Part shown: piece after piece, positions 1,867 to 10,257 of the stretch | Layout: every line of letters begins with the position of its first letter | Position numbering within the stretch: position 1 is the first letter of the stretch | Source: Clostridia bacterium | GTDB lineage: Bacteria > Bacillota > Peptococcia > DRI-13 > UBA5745 | Assembly (NCBI GenBank): GCA_018434325.1 | Contig: JAHDPO010000030.1 | Location: 1 to 47,703 of the forward strand | Reading direction: 5' to 3' | Length of the DNA stretch: 47,703 nt | Notes under the pieces: model-generated | What the model was told of the DNA's origin: nothing | Database searches by the model: none | The model's input: the letters and a program-made list of their open reading frames with translations, nothing else | Translations under genes and position numbers: made by a program

Positions 1867-4800
1867 TTATTTACTTTTTCTCACGCCGTTTTCATTTACC
1901 TCATAGCCGTCAATTTTGGTGTTGACTGCAAGAGAACCGTCGGCCTGAAAATAATACCACTTGCCCTCAATCTGGAGCCACTTGGCGGATATCATCACGC
2001 CATCGGTGGTGAAGTAATACTTGGCGCTTTCGACAGTGAGCCAGCCTGTAGCAGCTTTGCCGTCTACGCTTATATACTGCCATTGGCCGCCGTCGTTCTG
2101 GTTCCAGCCGCGTGCCGTACCCTCGTCGATGACAAGCTCCACGAACCGACGTAGGATGGTTGATGCCTCGGCGCGGGTAGCGTTGCCCTGCGGATCAAAG
2201 GTGTTGCTGCCCTTGCCCTGCATGATGCCAGCCTGCTGGATCGCTTTCACAGCATCCTTGGCGTAAGCGGAGATCTTCGCACCATCGGAGAAGGTGACCG
2301 CTGCTATAGCTGTCGGCAGCTTGTAGCCGGTGGCCTTGGCGTAGTTCTGCATCATCACCGCCATCTGCTCGCGTGTAATCAGATCGCTCGGCCTGAATTT
2401 ACCGTTGCCGTAGCCGGATACAATCTTGTTTTTAACCGTCCACTCAATATAAGGCATGGTGGAGTCACTGCTTCTGACATCAGTGAAGCCACTGGTCTTA
2501 TAGATACTCACATCTGCACCGGAGAGCCTGCCCAATGCCGTGAGGAAATCGGCGCGGGTGATGGAGGTGTTGGGTGCAAAGGTGGTTGCGGTCGTGCCGC
2601 TGATCAGGTCACGGCTGACAACAAAATCAATGTTGTCCTTTGCCCAATGCTTCGCCGTGTCGGTAAAGGCCGGGGCAGAAGCTTTGTAACCTACGCCGTA
2701 GGTGGACAGGCTGTTCCTGCTGAAAATCAGTCTGCCGTTGTCGTAGCTGGAATTTGTAAGTAACTGCGGCTTTCCGCTCTTATCGACATACACACCAAAC
2801 AGGCTACCGGTTCTTTCCTTGTCGGTGCCTTTGTAGGCAAGGCCCAGCGTGACCGCACCCTTTCCAAAATTGCTGATCGTCTCGGTCTTGCCGTTCTTCT
2901 GATAGCTCACGGTAATGTCGAACACCGGGCGGTTGCCGATGAGCCTCTTTGCCGCAGCAGACAGCTTCGTCAGCTTCTTGGCAGAAACAGTGACTGTGCC
3001 GCTGGATTGCCCGTCAATCTCAGCAATTGCTCCTGCATCGATTGTGATGTCCAGCACCGCCGAGCCGATCTTAACAAACTTTATGCCCGCTTCTTTCAAA
3101 CATGCAATCGCTCCTGCGTCGATGGTAGCGCTCAGGCCGGTGTAGCTGCCACTGCCTGTGATGTTGAAGTCCAAAGCGATACCGTCAACCTCTTTGCCAG
3201 ATTTCTTTGCTGCATCCTGTGCTGCCTTGATGGCGTCCTTTACCATCTGCTCGGTGATCGTTGCAGAGAGAACGCCGTCCTTCACTGTGCCGGCAGCACT
3301 CATTTTCGCCGTGGTCGGCATGCCGGGCTGCTTATCGGTGACAACAGTGGATGTTGGAGGTGTAGACGTATTGCCGCCGCCATCGCCACCGCCGCTGCTA
3401 CCGCTTCCGTTGTCGGTCCAGTTGGCGGTCACAGTGACAGCCTTGCCAGGCATAGTAAAGCTGGCATTTTTGCTTCCGGCATTGGTGATTGCCACATCGG
3501 AGGAAGTCCAGCCTGCAAAGCTGTAATTGCTTCGGCTGCCCGCCTGTATGGTGACAACCTTATTTGCAGGATAGCTGCCTGCACCGGTAGGTGAAGCGTA
3601 GCTGCCGTTAACGGTTACAAGGTAGGTTGCAGCAACTGGTTCAAATATCGCCTTAACGGTGACATTTCCGGAGGGCATGGTAAACTTGTTGGCCGTGATG
3701 GTCACACCGCCGCTGACAACCTGCCATTCCTTGAAGCGGTAGTTACTGTTCGGCGTAGCAGTCAGGGTGATTTCCGTATTCTGTGCCGCAGAATTTATAT
3801 TGGCAGAAGCCGCTCCGTTGCCATCGCTTTGGACGGTGATGGCATAGTGAAAGGCTGGCAGAGCTTCATAGGTTGCTGTCGCCGTCACTGCCTGTGCGGG
3901 CATGCTGATCGATGCTGTGGCATCAGTTTTCTTTGTGTCACCTTCGAAGGATACAGCAGGGGAAACCACCCACTCCTTAAAACGCTGTCCGCCAGGTGCG
4001 GCGTTGGCGATAATGGTAACTATCGAACCCTCTGTATAGCTGCCACCGCCTGTGCCGCCTTGCACGGTCAGGGGATAGGTGGCCTGCGGAGCTTTTTGCG
4101 GAGAGAATCTAAACCTATAATTATCCCAGGTGATGTTCTTGCCTGTGACAGCACTCTCATTCACCATATAGTTGTTTCTGGCATCAATATGAGAATAATC
4201 CGCACTGCCATTCAGCACAAGCCCGGTGAGCAGGTTATCGGAGCAGTATAACTCATCCAGTTTCGGCAGGCGGCTCACATCCAGCGCCGTTAGCCGATTC
4301 TCGGAGCAGATCAATTCAGTCAGTTTCGTCGAACCGCTCACATCCAGCGCTGTGATCTGGTTAGCACGGCAGTACAACTTAGTCAGATTTGTCAAGCCGC
4401 TCACATTCAGTGCCGTTAGCTTATTCTCATAGCAGCTCAGGACAACCATCTCCGTCGAACTGCTTACATCTAACACCGTGAGATAATTCTCATTGCAGGA
4501 TAACTCAGTCAGTTTGGTCAGGCCGCTCACATTCAGTGTGGTGAGCTTATTCTTGGAACATTTTACAACGTCCAACTCCGTCAAACCGCTTACATCCAGT
4601 GCAGTAAGCTGGTTATTGGAGCAGTCCAAAGTAATCAGCGCGGTAAAATGTTCGATACCCGCAAGGCTGGTAATGCCTTTACCTACTATCCCTAAATCTG
4701 TAATTCCGGCTACATCGGCAGTATAAATGGGGTCACTGCTGTATTTGCCCAGCTTTGATCGCACCGCAGCGAGAAACTTGGAATCGGTGAAACTGCTGGT

Positions 4801-7470
4801 GATGTCAGCAGATGGAGCAGCCTTAACCCATACCACACGGTCATCGCCATCGGTATACTTGGTGTATCCGGGCTTGCTGGAATCCGCCGCACCATCGCTT
4901 TTGAGCTTTATCGTACCACTGAGGTTGATATAATTCGCTGCCGTTATAGCGCCGTCAATCGTCATGCGCCCGCCACCGCTTCCGCCACCGGTCAGCCATG
5001 CGCCAACACCATCGGCTCCGGTTGCAGTAATCGTTTTTTGGGCGGTTATGGTGCCGCCGTTTGAAATGCGCGCACCGCATGTTACCGCTTCAATAACGCC
5101 ATGCGCCAAAATGGTTCCGCCCCCTTCGGCAAACACTCCAACGCCTGTAGTCGCCACAGTCTTGCCGCGAATAGTCACTACACTCCCGCTTCCGGAAGCA
5201 TAAGCCCCTCCGGAATTCCCGATGACATCCCCTTTCACAAGAACATTCGCCTTATCCATAATGTATATACCGCTATTTATGCCATTCACATTGCCGTTCA
5301 CAATAACGTCAGTTCCCGTACCGGAGGCATAGATCCCGTTACCTCCAGCTGCTGTTGCCGTGGCATTGGTTACGGTAACTGCACCACCGCTCCACGCTCT
5401 TATGCCATAATCGGTACCGGTGACATTGAGTTCACCTGTGGTAGCAGAGAGACTGACCCTTCCAGCCGTTCCGGATACATCCAGCCCGGAACCGCCAGAG
5501 TCTGTTATATTCAGTTTATATGGTCCCACATCGAATATGATATGCTTTCCCGTGACGGCAATGCCTTTCGGATAATTAATATCTTTAAGCAGTTTGATTC
5601 TATCTCCGGATTGTACCGCGGCAAGTGCCTCATCCAATGTGGCATATTGTGTACCGCTGATTTCGCAGACCTTGTCGGACGGTACGGCCACGCCCTTGAT
5701 CCGGACTACACAGTCGTTACCGTTGGAATATTTGGTAAAGCCGGAAAGGTCGGGATCTGCCACACCATCACCCTTGAGCTTAATCGTACTGCCTAACTTG
5801 ATATAATTTACTGCTGTTATATCGCCATCTATTCTCACAGTTCCGTCATTTGTGATCCATGCGCCAATACTGTCTGCTCCGGTTGTGGTGATGTCTTTTC
5901 CTGCGATAATCCTGCCGGTGCTTACAATTTTCACGCCGCACGATTCAGCTTCAATATCTCCATGCACCGCAATATTTGCATCACTTTCGGCTTCCGCCCC
6001 AACGCCTGCCGCATTAACATTGCCGTGAACCGTAACGGAGCTTCCGCTGCCAAACGCATAAACACCTGTATGTGGTGCGTTTACATTCCCTTGCACAATA
6101 ACGCTCGATGTTTTGGGCTGGACACTGGTGGCATGAATTCCGATGCCATCCGGCCGGGTTGCTGTGGCATTGGTCACGGTGGCAGAAGCAGTTTCGCCAT
6201 TCCTCACCATCACTCCAATACGACTACCGGTGATATTAAGCTCACCCGTGGTAGAAATTAAACTGACGCTTCCGGTTACTTCAAGCCCGGTCAGATAGTC
6301 ATATTCTGTTGCTGTTATGTTCAGTATATATTGCCCCACATCAAAGATGACTGCTTTGGAAATGGTAATACTGTCGCTATAGTTGATATTTGCCGTCAGC
6401 TTGATGGTGTCACCGTCTGATAAGGCATCCAACGCATCCTTTAGCTCCTCAGGCGTACCGACCGCAATGACGGTAGCCGGTGTGTCTGTACCCTTTACCC
6501 AAACAACGCTGTCTTCGGGGCCGGTGTGAGACGGGTGCATGTATGTGCGATAACCCGCTTTCGTGGTAGATAGCATTTTGGCATCAATGGTAAAATTAGC
6601 ACCATTCACCCTGACGTAGTTTTCCGCTTTTTTTACATTGATTACACCATCGACGGTAATTTTGCCATTGCCGCTCGAAAAGACGCCGACGTCACCGATT
6701 TCGGTGCCGGTTGCAGTGGCATCCCCCTCAATATGAATGGTACTGTAAGACTCGGTTTTAGCCGCAAGCGAGCTGCCTGTGACATTTCCTATTACCGTTA
6801 TATTGCTGCTCTGCCATGCCACAACGCCATCGCTGCCATTTTCAGCAGCCTCGGCATCACCTAAAACAGTGATCTCAGAGCTGTCTACAGCAAATGCACC
6901 GTATCCGTTTGCCCCGGTGGCGGTTGCATTGGTAAGCGTAGCTGTAGACGAGCCGTTTGCTTTCACCCCATAATAATGCCCGGAGGCATTGAGTTCACCC
7001 GTGGTGAAAGCCAGCGTAACCGTACCGCCGTTTTTCACCTCAAGTCCACATCCAGTACCCGAAGAGTCTGGGTTTGTTATATTCAATTTGTATTGCCCAA
7101 CATCGAAGGCCATGGTGATACCATCAATGACAATCCCCTTATTATAATTGATATCTGCCGCCAGCTTGATGGTATTGCCGTCTGCCAGGTTATTTAACGC
7201 ATCCTCCAACTCTGCCACTGTCCCGACTTCGATTTCTGCAGGCAAGCCATATGGCACACCTCTGCTATGGATCTCATTTGCGTCGGGCGAGGGAGCAGGA
7301 CTTCGCTCCAGCCCGGTTTCCTCTGCATCTGAGGGTGTAGCTTCCGGCGCACCGCTGTCCAACACCTCCGCATAAGCCTGCGTAGTACCTATTGGCACCG
7401 TCATAAGCATGACTACTGCCAATAGCATGGAAAGAGCTTTGCAAAGCCCTTTTTTCTGATATTTCAGCAT
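1867..7470 (-). CDS. giant mosaic SLH-anchored surface protein (1867 aa)
   Basis: This is an exported cell-surface protein. In order: a signal peptide (residues 1-34, ending AYA); three homologous right-handed beta-helix modules (about 75-890), each opening with ELEDAL..L.DG..IKL..DINY and rich in short V.GNV-type turns; leucine-rich repeats of the LTALDVSGLT type (about 910-1093); three InlB-type B repeats (about 1120-1357); a GGGDGGG/STPP linker; a poorly recognised domain (about 1375-1590); three SLH domains (about 1595-1780); and aromatic cell-wall-binding repeats (GWLTVESAKYYFTTDG, WYYFQADGSL) to the end. SLH domains normally bind pyruvylated secondary wall polymers; the terminal repeats resemble choline-binding-type modules. 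ATG at 7470 is preceded by GGGAGG. An adhesin or glycan-binding role is likely but unproven. Neighbouring PAS-AraC genes may control it. Confidence 0.9.
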   Translation of the reverse strand: MLKYQKKGLCKALSMLLAVVMLMTVPIGTTQAYAEVLDSGAPEATPSDAEETGLERSPAPSPDANEIHSRGVPYGLPAEIEVGTVAELEDALNNLADGNTIKLAADINYNKGIVIDGITMAFDVGQYKLNITNPDSSGTGCGLEVKNGGTVTLAFTTGELNASGHYYGVKANGSSTATLTNATATGANGYGAFAVDSSEITVLGDAEAAENGSDGVVAWQSSNITVIGNVTGSSLAAKTESYSTIHIEGDATATGTEIGDVGVFSSGNGKITVDGVINVKKAENYVRVNGANFTIDAKMLSTTKAGYRTYMHPSHTGPEDSVVWVKGTDTPATVIAVGTPEELKDALDALSDGDTIKLTANINYSDSITISKAVIFDVGQYILNITATEYDYLTGLEVTGSVSLISTTGELNITGSRIGVMVRNGETASATVTNATATRPDGIGIHATSVQPKTSSVIVQGNVNAPHTGVYAFGSGSSVTVHGNVNAAGVGAEAESDANIAVHGDIEAESCGVKIVSTGRIIAGKDITTTGADSIGAWITNDGTVRIDGDITAVNYIKLGSTIKLKGDGVADPDLSGFTKYSNGNDCVVRIKGVAVPSDKVCEISGTQYATLDEALAAVQSGDRIKLLKDINYPKGIAVTGKHIIFDVGPYKLNITDSGGSGLDVSGTAGRVSLSATTGELNVTGTDYGIRAWSGGAVTVTNATATAAGGNGIYASGTGTDVIVNGNVNGINSGIYIMDKANVLVKGDVIGNSGGAYASGSGSVVTIRGKTVATTGVGVFAEGGGTILAHGVIEAVTCGARISNGGTITAQKTITATGADGVGAWLTGGGSGGGRMTIDGAITAANYINLSGTIKLKSDGAADSSKPGYTKYTDGDDRVVWVKAAPSADITSSFTDSKFLAAVRSKLGKYSSDPIYTADVAGITDLGIVGKGITSLAGIEHFTALITLDCSNNQLTALDVSGLTELDVVKCSKNKLTTLNVSGLTKLTELSCNENYLTVLDVSSSTEMVVLSCYENKLTALNVSGLTNLTKLYCRANQITALDVSGSTKLTELICSENRLTALDVSRLPKLDELYCSDNLLTGLVLNGSADYSHIDARNNYMVNESAVTGKNITWDNYRFRFSPQKAPQATYPLTVQGGTGGGSYTEGSIVTIIANAAPGGQRFKEWVVSPAVSFEGDTKKTDATASISMPAQAVTATATYEALPAFHYAITVQSDGNGAASANINSAAQNTEITLTATPNSNYRFKEWQVVSGGVTITANKFTMPSGNVTVKAIFEPVAATYLVTVNGSYASPTGAGSYPANKVVTIQAGSRSNYSFAGWTSSDVAITNAGSKNASFTMPGKAVTVTANWTDNGSGSSGGGDGGGNTSTPPTSTVVTDKQPGMPTTAKMSAAGTVKDGVLSATITEQMVKDAIKAAQDAAKKSGKEVDGIALDFNITGSGSYTGLSATIDAGAIACLKEAGIKFVKIGSAVLDITIDAGAIAEIDGQSSGTVTVSAKKLTKLSAAAKRLIGNRPVFDITVSYQKNGKTETISNFGKGAVTLGLAYKGTDKERTGSLFGVYVDKSGKPQLLTNSSYDNGRLIFSRNSLSTYGVGYKASAPAFTDTAKHWAKDNIDFVVSRDLISGTTATTFAPNTSITRADFLTALGRLSGADVSIYKTSGFTDVRSSDSTMPYIEWTVKNKIVSGYGNGKFRPSDLITREQMAVMMQNYAKATGYKLPTAIAAVTFSDGAKISAYAKDAVKAIQQAGIMQGKGSNTFDPQGNATRAEASTILRRFVELVIDEGTARGWNQNDGGQWQYISVDGKAATGWLTVESAKYYFTTDGVMISAKWLQIEGKWYYFQADGSLAVNTKIDGYEVNENGVRKSK

Positions 7471-7493
7471 GATAATCCCTCCCATATTTGATT

Positions 7494-7682
7494 TTAATCT
7501 TCTTCCGGCTCTGCCTGTGCGACTGCGATGCTGAACCCTGCGTCTTTCTCGATGTCTGCCTCCACTCCGGCATCCTTAAGAATTTTTTCAGCAGTCTTTT
7601 TCGCCGCCTTTTCCTTTGCGCCGCAGCCGGCAATCGAAAGAGCCATTAAAAGAATCAACAGCCCGATTAAAAATTTCTTCAT
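7494..7682 (-). CDS. small lipoprotein (62 aa)
   Basis: The N-terminus MKKFLIGLLILLMALSIAGC carries a lipobox (SIAGC, lipidated Cys at residue 20). The mature part is only about 43 residues, begins with Lys/Ala-rich helix and ends acidic. It lies 23 bases before the giant surface-protein gene, on the same strand, so co-transcription is likely. A GAGAGGAAG ribosome site precedes the ATG. It could be a small membrane-anchored partner of the surface protein; no known family was recognised. Confidence 0.75.
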   Translation of the reverse strand: MKKFLIGLLILLMALSIAGCGAKEKAAKKTAEKILKDAGVEADIEKDAGFSIAVAQAEPEED

Positions 7683-7810: not shown

Positions 7811-8296
7811 TCAAATTGTAAAAACCGCGACGCTGTGCATCACCAAGCCGTCCTCGGCTGAAATCGGAAATACAATTGCTTTACGATAGTTTTTTGGTTT
7901 TGAATCATTTTTTCTTTTTTCTGGAAATCTGAAAAGCGGATACTTCAGATCATCCAGAAAACAGGTTTCCCCGGCGAAGGCTTGCCGGACGGCACTCGCC
8001 AGCGCAATATTATCGAAGATGCAGTGATAAATGTTGAGCCTGCCAGCCCCAAGGTCTTCCGGGGTTGCCCCGGTTTCTGCGGCAAAGGCATTGTTGACCG
8101 TTTCCAGAATCCCCTGCAGCGTAAATACTGCTATGGGGTACGGACAGAAATCAATGATTTGTGAAAACAGACCTTCGTTTGCAGTAAGCATCTGGAACCG
8201 CCGGATCATCTGATCGTGATACTGTACTTTTTCCTCCAGCTCCTTTTGCAGCTCTAGCAGTTCCAACAACAGTTGTTCTTTCGTCTTCTCACCCAT
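7811..8296 (-). CDS. stand-alone PAS-domain protein without DNA-binding domain
   Basis: This 161-residue protein has an N-terminal coiled coil (residues about 1-35, LLLELLELQKELEEKVQ) and a PAS-like domain (about 40-155: FCPYPIAVFTLQGILETVN, then AFAGETCFLDDLKYPL). The domain is related to the sensor part of the two PAS-AraC regulators nearby: same PYPI/V motif, same F-GET(C/I) strand. No HTH or output domain is present. ATG at 8296 follows GGGAGG at a 9-base spacing; an upstream in-frame GTG is less likely because it overlaps that site. I infer it modulates the AraC-type paralogues by sharing a ligand or forming mixed dimers; this is unproven. Confidence 0.7.
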   Translation of the reverse strand: MGEKTKEQLLLELLELQKELEEKVQYHDQMIRRFQMLTANEGLFSQIIDFCPYPIAVFTLQGILETVNNAFAAETGATPEDLGAGRLNIYHCIFDNIALASAVRQAFAGETCFLDDLKYPLFRFPEKRKNDSKPKNYRKAIVFPISAEDGLVMHSVAVFTI

Positions 8297-8406
8297 GGAG
8301 CATATCCTCCCTTCCACCTATTTGCCTTTACTTTAATGAAAAACACCTCAATAAGATAGGCGCCACCCGACCCAATTTAGTAAGAAAAAGACCATTCGGC
8401 GCAAAT

Positions 8407-8460: not shown

Positions 8461-9255
8461 TTAGCCCTGTTGTGTGTTTTTTCGATATTGGGACGGGGAA
8501 AGTCCCGTTTTTTCCTTGAAAACTTTTGCGAAATAGCCGTTGTAGTCCAAGCCGCAAGCAGTGAATACCTGAGAGATGGACAAGTTTGAATCCGATAGTT
8601 TCTCTTTGATCCGGCTGACCTTAAAATTGACGTAGTAATCGTGGGGCGTCATCCCTGTATGCTTCTTAAATAGCCTTGAAAAATGGGTCCGGCTCAGACA
8701 GGCCGCTTTCGCCATTTCGTTTATATCGAAGACTTCCAGCCAGTGGGTTTCTATGTACTCCTTCGCTCTCTCGATTTCCTCCTTACCGCGGTAGACCCTT
8801 CTGACGGTCTGGATGCCAACAACATAGGCGACCTGTCCCGCATCATCAAAGATTGGGAAGTTGGTGATGTCCTGATACATGGCCTCCATATCGTAGTCCT
8901 GCACACCAAAACGCTCCGACAGAACACTCAGAGGAATCTTAATGTCCGGGCAATAAATGGTCTCCCCCCGAAATGCCCGCTGCAACACACTGAGCGGAAT
9001 ATTGGAGGTAACGGCAGGATCTTTTAAGACATTATATTTTCCAATGACGGTTTCCTCAAGCAGTTCCCGCGTGATTCCGTATTGCTTGCGCACGGCCTCA
9101 TTGACAAACACCGTGGTTCCGTCAGGGGCAAAAACGTGAATCATATAGGGAAACAACTCAATTGCCTTTGCAAGTAGGGCTTCCTTATCAGAATTAAAAA
9201 AGGATTGGAAGGAGTCCGCCAAGCTGTTTTGATTTTCTTTATGGTTCGTTATCAT
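8461..9255 (-). CDS. PAS-AraC regulator (second paralogue, HTH split off)
   Basis: This 264-residue protein has an N-terminal PAS-like domain (about 30-160: LFPYMIHVFAPDGTTVFVN ... NFPIFDDAGQVAYVVGI) and a C-terminal AraC HTH pair (about 165-260: LSRTHFSRLFKKHTGMTPH ... KTGLSPSQYR). It matches the 529-1458 protein along its length except for the N-terminal winged HTH, which is here encoded by a separate upstream frame (9239-9439). The ATG at 9255 overlaps the end of that frame by 17 bases in another frame, so translation may be coupled. The split could be natural or a frameshift of a fused ancestor. Confidence 0.8.
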   Translation of the reverse strand: MITNHKENQNSLADSFQSFFNSDKEALLAKAIELFPYMIHVFAPDGTTVFVNEAVRKQYGITRELLEETVIGKYNVLKDPAVTSNIPLSVLQRAFRGETIYCPDIKIPLSVLSERFGVQDYDMEAMYQDITNFPIFDDAGQVAYVVGIQTVRRVYRGKEEIERAKEYIETHWLEVFDINEMAKAACLSRTHFSRLFKKHTGMTPHDYYVNFKVSRIKEKLSDSNLSISQVFTACGLDYNGYFAKVFKEKTGLSPSQYRKNTQQG

Positions 9256-9439
9256 ATGCTTCGGACTCCTTTTTTCGAATTTTCCTCGGGTCGGCGGGCT
9301 TTTTTGCATCGCTTGGAATCATCCATGACTTTCCGAAACGATGCACGCCTTGGATGCGGCCCTCCTCACAGAGCTTTTGCACTCGCCTTTGAGAGATATC
9401 CCACTTAACCGCCGTTTCTTGCACGGTGATAAAATCCAT
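9239..9439 (-). CDS. small HTH DNA-binding protein, N-terminal half of a split regulator
   Basis: The 66 residues MDFITVQETAVKWDISQRRV...GRIQGVHRFGKSWMIPSDAKKP correspond to the first domain of the fused regulator at 529-1458: excisionase/MerR-like winged HTH with the same closing WMIP/WLIP motif. GAGGAG stands 6 bases before the ATG. The frame ends inside the start of the PAS-AraC gene. It probably acts with that partner, or the pair is one gene broken by a frameshift. A promoter lies at 9471-9499. Confidence 0.7.
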   Translation of the reverse strand: MDFITVQETAVKWDISQRRVQKLCEEGRIQGVHRFGKSWMIPSDAKKPADPRKIRKKESEAYDNEP

Positions 9440-9499: not shown

Positions 9500-10257
9500 G
9501 AGAAATATAAATATGAAATATGGGACATTGAGCAGAATATTTTTTCCGGACTGCTTTACTGCAAGGATTGCGGAAAGACGATGGTGCTCAGCCGGGCGCA
9601 CACCATGGAAGCGGTTAAAAACAACTTCCAATGCGCTACTTGCAGAAAACGGGTCAAGGAAATCTGTTCCGGACACTACATCAGAGAGGCACAGCTGGCC
9701 GCCATCCTTTTGGACGACCTGCGCAGGTGACGCATTTCGCAAGGCAGAACGAGCTGCTTTTCGCCAAGCATATCACGCAAAAGAACGGCGCTGAGATCCG
9801 CAGCGAGATTGCTCGGACTGAGCGGGAGTTGGAAGCTCTCAAGCGCAGAGATACCGAATTGACCGCTCTTTTCAAACGGCTCTATGAGGACAACGTGCTG
9901 GGCAAAATCCCGAATGAGGTCTTCCGAAAGCTCAGTGATGACTGCCTCACCGAGCAAAAAGAAATCCAGTCCGCCATCCCCAAGAGGGAAAGTGAGCTGG
10001 AAAAGCTAAAGGGTTCGGTGGCTAACGTCAGTGCCTTCATCGAAAAGGCAAAGCAGTATACCCAGATCAATGAGCTCACCGCTGAAATCCTGAACCTCTT
10101 CATTGAGCAGGTGGAGGTCGGGGAGCGTGACGAGAAATGGTCTCACACCGCCCCGCAGGAAATCAGCATTTACTATCGGGATATCGGTTTGATGGACAAT
10201 GTAGCCGAACAGCAAGGAGAACAGGAAACATCGAGCGACCCGTCAGAGGTCGCATAA
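9494..10257 (+). pseudogene. C-terminal remnant of a large serine recombinase, frameshifted
   Basis: The first frame (9494-9730) reads EQNIFSGLLYCKDCGKTMVL ... CATCRKRVKEIC ... LAAILLDDLRR and then stops. This is the zinc-ribbon part of a large serine recombinase (Tn4451/TnpX-type). The protein continues one frame over from about 9727 with VTHFARQNELLFAKHIT, a long coiled coil (residues with RTERELEALKRRDTEL) and the terminal IYYRDIGLMD motif, to the stop at 10257. One missing G in the AGGTGA stretch explains the frameshift. The catalytic N-terminal domain is absent, and a stop lies at 9491-9493. It cannot be active. It marks an old mobile element at the border of the accessory region. Confidence 0.85.

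Follow-up and report, generated by a model that had tools for sequence, protein, structure and literature searches.

The window, a 47,703-nucleotide stretch of contig JAHDPO010000030.1 from a Clostridia bacterium assembly (GCA_018434325.1), encodes a large modular surface protein on its minus strand. The features of the gene and its immediate flanks are listed in Table 1. The preliminary description placed the gene at 1867–7470; this is the same open reading frame, but the frame opens at 7485, and position 7470 corresponds to its in-frame second ATG (MLKYQ...). Paralogous regulators of the PAS/AraC type flank the gene on both sides (529–1458, 7811–8317 and 8461–9309) and also adjoin two other SLH genes of the same genome (locus L051, 1266–2786; locus L053, 1560–1898). 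They may constitute a local system that controls surface proteins. Further away, a 208-residue frame on the plus strand (9631–10257) matches DUF4368 (2.9e-20), a C-terminal domain of serine recombinases; it may be the remnant of a mobile element close to the surface-protein gene. A search of a phage collection returned no match.

Table 1. Positions in the window of the surface-protein gene, its modules and adjacent features
Feature	Position	Strand	Basis or remark
Terminator-like hairpin directly 3′ of the stop codon	1809..1852	minus	20 pairs and a T run; MFE -37 kcal/mol, z -8.6
Whole gene	1867..7485	minus	ORF, 1872 aa; alternative start at 7470
CBR (choline-binding-type repeat) module: three hairpin repeats and C-terminal cap, residues 1790–1872	1870..2118	minus	PF19127, PF01473; fold Z 12.1 to 3hia_B
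Three SLH domains, residues 1607–1788	2122..2667	minus	PF00395; matched by sequence to SbsB and Sap in the PDB; fold Z 19.8 to 3pyw
GAIN/ZU5-like domain, residues about 1435–1606	2668..3183	minus	Predicted models and fold search; nothing above cut-off in Pfam
S1592-L1593-S1594 at the position of the GPS cleavage triad	2704..2712	minus	Most relatives have H[FL]S
Three InlB-type (Flg_new_2) repeats, residues about 1137–1208, 1213–1284 and 1288–1360	3406..4077	minus	PF18998; bounds set by eye
Leucine-rich repeat region, residues about 898–1135	4081..4794	minus	LRR_4, 1.2e-16
Beta-helix module M3, residues 609–894; best Beta_helix stretch 658–776	4804..5661	minus	Pfam and homology
Beta-helix module M2, residues 339–602	5680..6471	minus	Homologous to M1 and M3
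Beta-helix module M1, residues 85–332	6490..7233	minus	Homologous to M2 and M3
Signal peptide, residues 1–40, ...TTQAYAE	7366..7485	minus	Judged by eye from the sequence
62-codon lipoprotein-like ORF (MKKFLIGLLILLMALSIAGC...) directly upstream of the surface-protein gene	7494..7682	minus	Lipobox called by eye

Six Pfam families exceed their curated cut-offs in the 1872-residue protein: SLH (PF00395; 4.5e-40, 135.8 bits against a cut-off of 20.8, three stretches), the divergent InlB B-repeat Flg_new_2 (2.2e-31, three stretches), LRR_4 (four stretches), Choline_bind_3 (6.5e-11, 42.4 bits against 27), Beta_helix (6.7e-7) and Choline_bind_1 (2e-6, 28.3 bits against 20.5). Choline_bind_2 (7e-5) falls below its cut-off. 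Together with alignments of the beta-helix modules, these matches corroborate the earlier proposal that three homologous beta-helix modules, LRRs and InlB-type repeats precede the anchors. In pairwise alignments, M1, M2 and M3 share 96/233, 93/237 and 127/258 aligned residues (39 to 49% identity); as mutual homologs, they originated by duplication. None of nine near genomes has a full-length counterpart of the N-terminal modules, but the tail region has one, which fits a rapidly evolving head on a conserved anchor. Judging from the domain types, the protein may have an adhesive role, and both secretion and ligand binding by the ectodomain would be expected.

We modeled the tail (residues 1425–1872) using an alignment of 32 sequences, which gave a confident prediction (mean pLDDT 90.0, pTM 0.87). 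The predicted SLH part adopts the trimer fold of Bacillus anthracis Sap (3pyw; rmsd 2.9 over 176 aligned residues) and also matches SLH structures determined in complex with pyruvylated ligands. The ITRAE motif is partly kept in the three SLH domains (ITRAD, ITREQ and ATRAE), with the arginine present in all of them. The CBR module is predicted to form a solenoid of three repeats, with hairpins at model residues 369–381, 390–401 and 411–422 followed by a cap at 432–439. It aligns with all 83 of the 83 target residues of the choline-binding domain of pneumococcal Spr1274 (3hia_B) at 45% identity. At the sequence level, the module matches solved choline-binding modules, and the matches include clostridial toxin repeats, glucansucrases, CbpF and LytA; therefore, the fold alone cannot name the ligand. 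The central claim of the preliminary description, SLH domains followed by aromatic cell-wall-binding repeats at one C-terminus, is thus upheld by both the profile matches and the tail model. That description had also singled out the last ~70 residues as the place where a non-binding fold would speak against it, and residues 1790–1872 proved to resemble choline-binding modules in sequence as well as in predicted fold. Of the two separate ways of holding on to the wall that it envisaged, what stands is a tandem of two types of wall-binding module, the CBR being a putative hold.

We then considered the ligands. CsaB, the wall pyruvylation enzyme, is needed for the SLH ligand, and the genome encodes it (TIGR03609; 283.7 bits against a cut-off of 213.1). 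Among 28 tail-bearing genomes CsaB is over cut-off in only 14 and without a match in seven, so that the SLH ligand can be counted on only in genomes with CsaB and not across the family. The seven genomes are G046, G048, G049, G051, G057, G062 and G064. LicD (PF04991) has no match in the present genome, which is 98.29% complete. Across a set of 28 genomes that includes this one, the others having been chosen for their tails, LicD was matched in six and had no match in 22; this set differs slightly from the one used for CsaB. Since CsaB is present and LicD has no match in the genome, choline is an unlikely second ligand, and phosphocholine made by LicD is probably not what the repeats bind. The label of choline-binding-like repeats thus survives as a statement about repeat type and fold, not about choline as the ligand, and without a LicD match we do not file the protein as a choline-binding protein by function. 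More generally, where a genome lacks LicD, a choline-binding repeat label carries no information on choline. Literal choline binding was considered and found unsupported, as LicD has no match here and is matched in only six of the 28 genomes. A version of it in which the CBR is a true choline-binding module and an enzyme other than LicD adds the phosphocholine could appeal to the close similarity to the Spr1274 domain, the presence of three repeats and the six genomes with LicD, but the lack of a LicD match here and in 22 of the 28 genomes makes it quite improbable in our view. A review holds that choline binding is not to be expected with fewer than three such repeats (PMC5817068); as the CBR has only three hairpins, right at this threshold, its affinity may be low.

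How typical is the SLH–CBR tail? A profile search of the genome (3.83 Mb in 70 contigs) yielded 47 SLH matches in 17 frames. There are 11 Choline_bind_3 matches in seven frames and five Choline_bind_1 matches in five frames, and every one of these is also an SLH frame. LysM, a peptidoglycan-binding module, has nine matches, five of them in SLH frames. Tail types were assigned for 16 of the 17 SLH frames, all except that on contig C56. A full CBR module ends five frames (the window protein and four more), a shortened one ends two, and a CBR-like stub followed by LysM ends another five, the stub being detected by alignment and not by Pfam; three frames terminate at SLH and one has SLH at its N-terminus. 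Three giant SLH genes lie on a single 45-kb contig of this genome (G000:C68; L043 and L044), two with CBR tails and one with a LysM tail.

The tail also recurs outside this genome. A scan of named genomes returned 80 loci, with hosts including Lachnospiraceae, Oscillospiraceae, Syntrophomonadaceae, Desulfotomaculaceae and Fusibacteraceae. In 45 of these tails, scanned with Pfam, SLH was found in 45, Choline_bind_3 in 32, Choline_bind_1 in 26 and LysM in two; the ends of the others (L091, L092, L098, L106, L107 and L109–L138) were read directly. The full SLH–stub–LysM tail was detected in three of 28 further genomes (E up to 1e-60). A unique architecture is ruled out by this recurrence in the genome and in named relatives, and the pairing of SLH and CBR is not special to the window protein: it holds for all seven CBR frames of the genome and for 32 of 45 scanned tails of named relatives. 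As far as sequences can tell, the pairing is a standing cassette in clostridia and no chance fusion.

To trace the tail types, we mapped them onto an SLH tree of 61 rows (L091 and L109–L138 set aside), for which the labels were set by eye and the bootstrap had not settled. On this tree LysM tails constitute one clade (one change, 99/98), and 14 changes are required for the CBR label, of which starred branches force at least eight. The window protein groups with proteins of Anaerocolumna aminovalerica (CBR), Lysinibacillus piscis (stub) and Lutispora (no tail), and adjoins the LysM clade. Tail types therefore differ even among close SLH relatives, and this variation, together with the N-terminal modules lacking full-length counterparts on a kept tail, agrees with the mosaic build that had been suggested. 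We had considered that the window tail was swapped in and that CBR modules were shuffled freely among SLH proteins, but dropped this idea because the 61-row tree fits one replacement of CBR by LysM and many truncations. At one locus (L074, 2861–3029), a LysM-coding remnant lies in frame directly 3′ of the stop codon of an SLH–CBR gene. In five pairs (C58–L069, C34–L069, C68c–L069, C68a–L070 and C70–L084), the DNA identity between a tail of this genome and one of Marasmitruncus or Lacrimispora defluvii is 82.5 to 88.9%. IleS, used as a single yardstick gene, shares 53% protein identity with that of Marasmitruncus, and IleS of L. defluvii is of another type (35%). Taken together, these values are no more than suggestive of horizontal spread of tails.

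The distribution of tails also bears on what the CBR module might do. It could be a passive capping or stability element without a ligand, as its mere three hairpins and its truncation or absence in many relatives would allow. However, clostridia of distant families retain the repeats and the cap, and siblings have an unrelated wall binder, LysM, in this position, so that we give this possibility little credence. The solenoid could instead be an outward ligand-binding end directed at host or biofilm glycans, in the manner of CROP or glucansucrase repeats, with SLH alone holding the protein. In its favor, glucansucrases and clostridial toxins, both among the nearest matches by sequence, use this repeat fold to bind glycans, the genome has no LicD match, and the tail is lost repeatedly as SLH stays. 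On the other hand, the CBR comes immediately after SLH3, at the end nearest the wall, and five sibling proteins have LysM in its slot, a better fit with a wall ligand; we regard an outward role as unlikely.

We consider it likely that this surface protein is secreted, modular and ligand-binding and that a composite wall anchor holds it, SLH being combined with an accessory glycan lock. The N-terminal beta-helix, LRR and InlB-type modules would form a long ectodomain. The three SLH domains would act as one trimeric unit binding pyruvylated secondary wall polysaccharide, and the CBR solenoid, continuous with SLH3, may serve as an accessory lock that grips another wall polymer and probably does not bind phosphocholine. 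This accessory slot appears evolvable: CBR would be its common state, truncated or lost many times and replaced once by LysM. Stacked unlike wall anchors would then be a standing solution in clostridia, the second anchor being exchangeable while SLH stays. Proteins with CBR, LysM or no second anchor on near-identical SLH domains offer natural pairs for measuring the contribution of that anchor.

Between the InlB-type repeats and SLH1 lies a further domain, missing from the preliminary description. Modeled alone with 42 sequences, it reached a pLDDT of 90.8. In a fold comparison, 24 of the first 26 rows were GAIN, ZU5 or FIIND domains (Z 9.3 to 6.1), among them CD97 GAIN (9.3), ankyrin ZU5 (9.1), BAI3 (8.6), CARD8 (7.5), NLRP1 (7.3) and latrophilin-1 (6.3). 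The other two rows were axonemal protein chains (Z 8.9 and 8.8), and unrelated enzymes started at Z 5.5. Foldseek gave a weaker result (best E 1.6e-3, ankyrin-B ZU5). A PDB sequence-profile search with the domain found no match at E up to 1, and Pfam reported nothing over cut-off for the 42 sequences, with a weak Nup98 autopeptidase signal in three (best E 0.069). In seven rows (6v55, 8hc0, 5kvm, 7qu8, 4dlq, 7crv_C and 8vti), the alignment stops at model residue 169, which corresponds to L1593; several of these chains end at their own cleavage point. The models thus lend moderate support to residues about 1435–1606 folding like GAIN/ZU5 autoproteolytic domains.

At the triad position, 34 of the 42 aligned rows have H[FL]S and four, including the window protein, have S-L-S; a Ser at P1′ is found in 38 (Ser1594 in the window protein). 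The window protein thus lacks the H-[LF]-[ST] triad that precedes the last strand, and since its triad has no His we call the domain GAIN/ZU5-like only. Among the 15 C-terminal SLH frames examined in this genome, 14 carry H[FL]S and only the window protein does not; its residues 1425–1606 contain no His at all. S-L-S is no proof of inactivity, since CARD8 is cut at S-F/S, where the second Ser is required and changing the first to Ala causes only a small reduction (PMC3210808). According to the same study, the efficiency of CARD8 cleavage also depends on Glu and His residues in the vicinity (PMC3210808). Siblings with H[FL]S probably cut themselves in this stalk between ectodomain and anchor, and the window protein, judged by its residues, is probably covalently whole. 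After such a cut only strand pairing would hold a sibling ectodomain, which would therefore be releasable under force or denaturation. One may tentatively go further and picture a clostridial family of SLH giants with GAIN/ZU5-type self-cleavage (H-[F/L]|S), force-releasable coupling and a two-part anchor with CBR or LysM as the second lock, in which the sub-clade of the window protein has lost the catalytic His and become permanently fixed; this larger picture may be right, but we would not bet on it. If the domain does cut itself, it would provide, in bacteria and beside a wall anchor, a counterpart to the adhesion GPCR ectodomains that are held non-covalently.

Each of the modules is already known, and the combination of SLH followed by CBR or LysM is without a description in the open-access literature that we searched. 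The window protein resembles SLH-anchored proteins (Sap of B. anthracis, SpaA and SbsB) in its three SLH domains, their predicted trimer fold and the presence of CsaB in the genome, but differs in having CBR after SLH, a GAIN/ZU5-like domain before it and an ITRAE motif that is only partly kept. With pneumococcal choline-binding proteins (Spr1274, CbpF, CbpJ and LytA) it shares the repeat sequence, the solenoid fold and a LytA-like C-terminal cap; in contrast to them, it has only three hairpins, is fused to SLH and comes from a genome with no LicD match. The domain before SLH1 has the predicted fold of GAIN of adhesion GPCRs, ZU5 of ankyrin, PIDD and UNC5, and FIIND of CARD8 and NLRP1, with the triad likewise at the turn before the last strand. 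Unlike these, it is bacterial and extracellular, adjoins a wall anchor, has no sequence-profile match and carries a triad without His. Liao et al. (2014), in work on GAIN, ZU5 and Nup98, reportedly extended ZU5-like domains to bacteria. The S-F/S triad of CARD8 lacks His, as that of the window protein does (PMC3210808). ZU5 autopeptidase domains on bacterial surfaces have been proposed in large modular adhesion-type proteins, as stated in parts of two reports (PMC3482391; PMC11188070), the second of which, a 2024 preprint, links ZU5 with SLH and cell-wall-binding domains in a single domain network. The descriptions in those parts include neither SLH followed by CBR or LysM nor the Pfam-blank domain (PMC3482391; PMC11188070). 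Finally, the protein has LRRs and InlB-type B repeats in common with internalins (InlJ and InlB), but the internalin J model matches it only partially (residues 888–1108, 126.8 bits, far below the cut-off of 1700), and it is anchored by SLH and CBR instead of LPXTG or GW.
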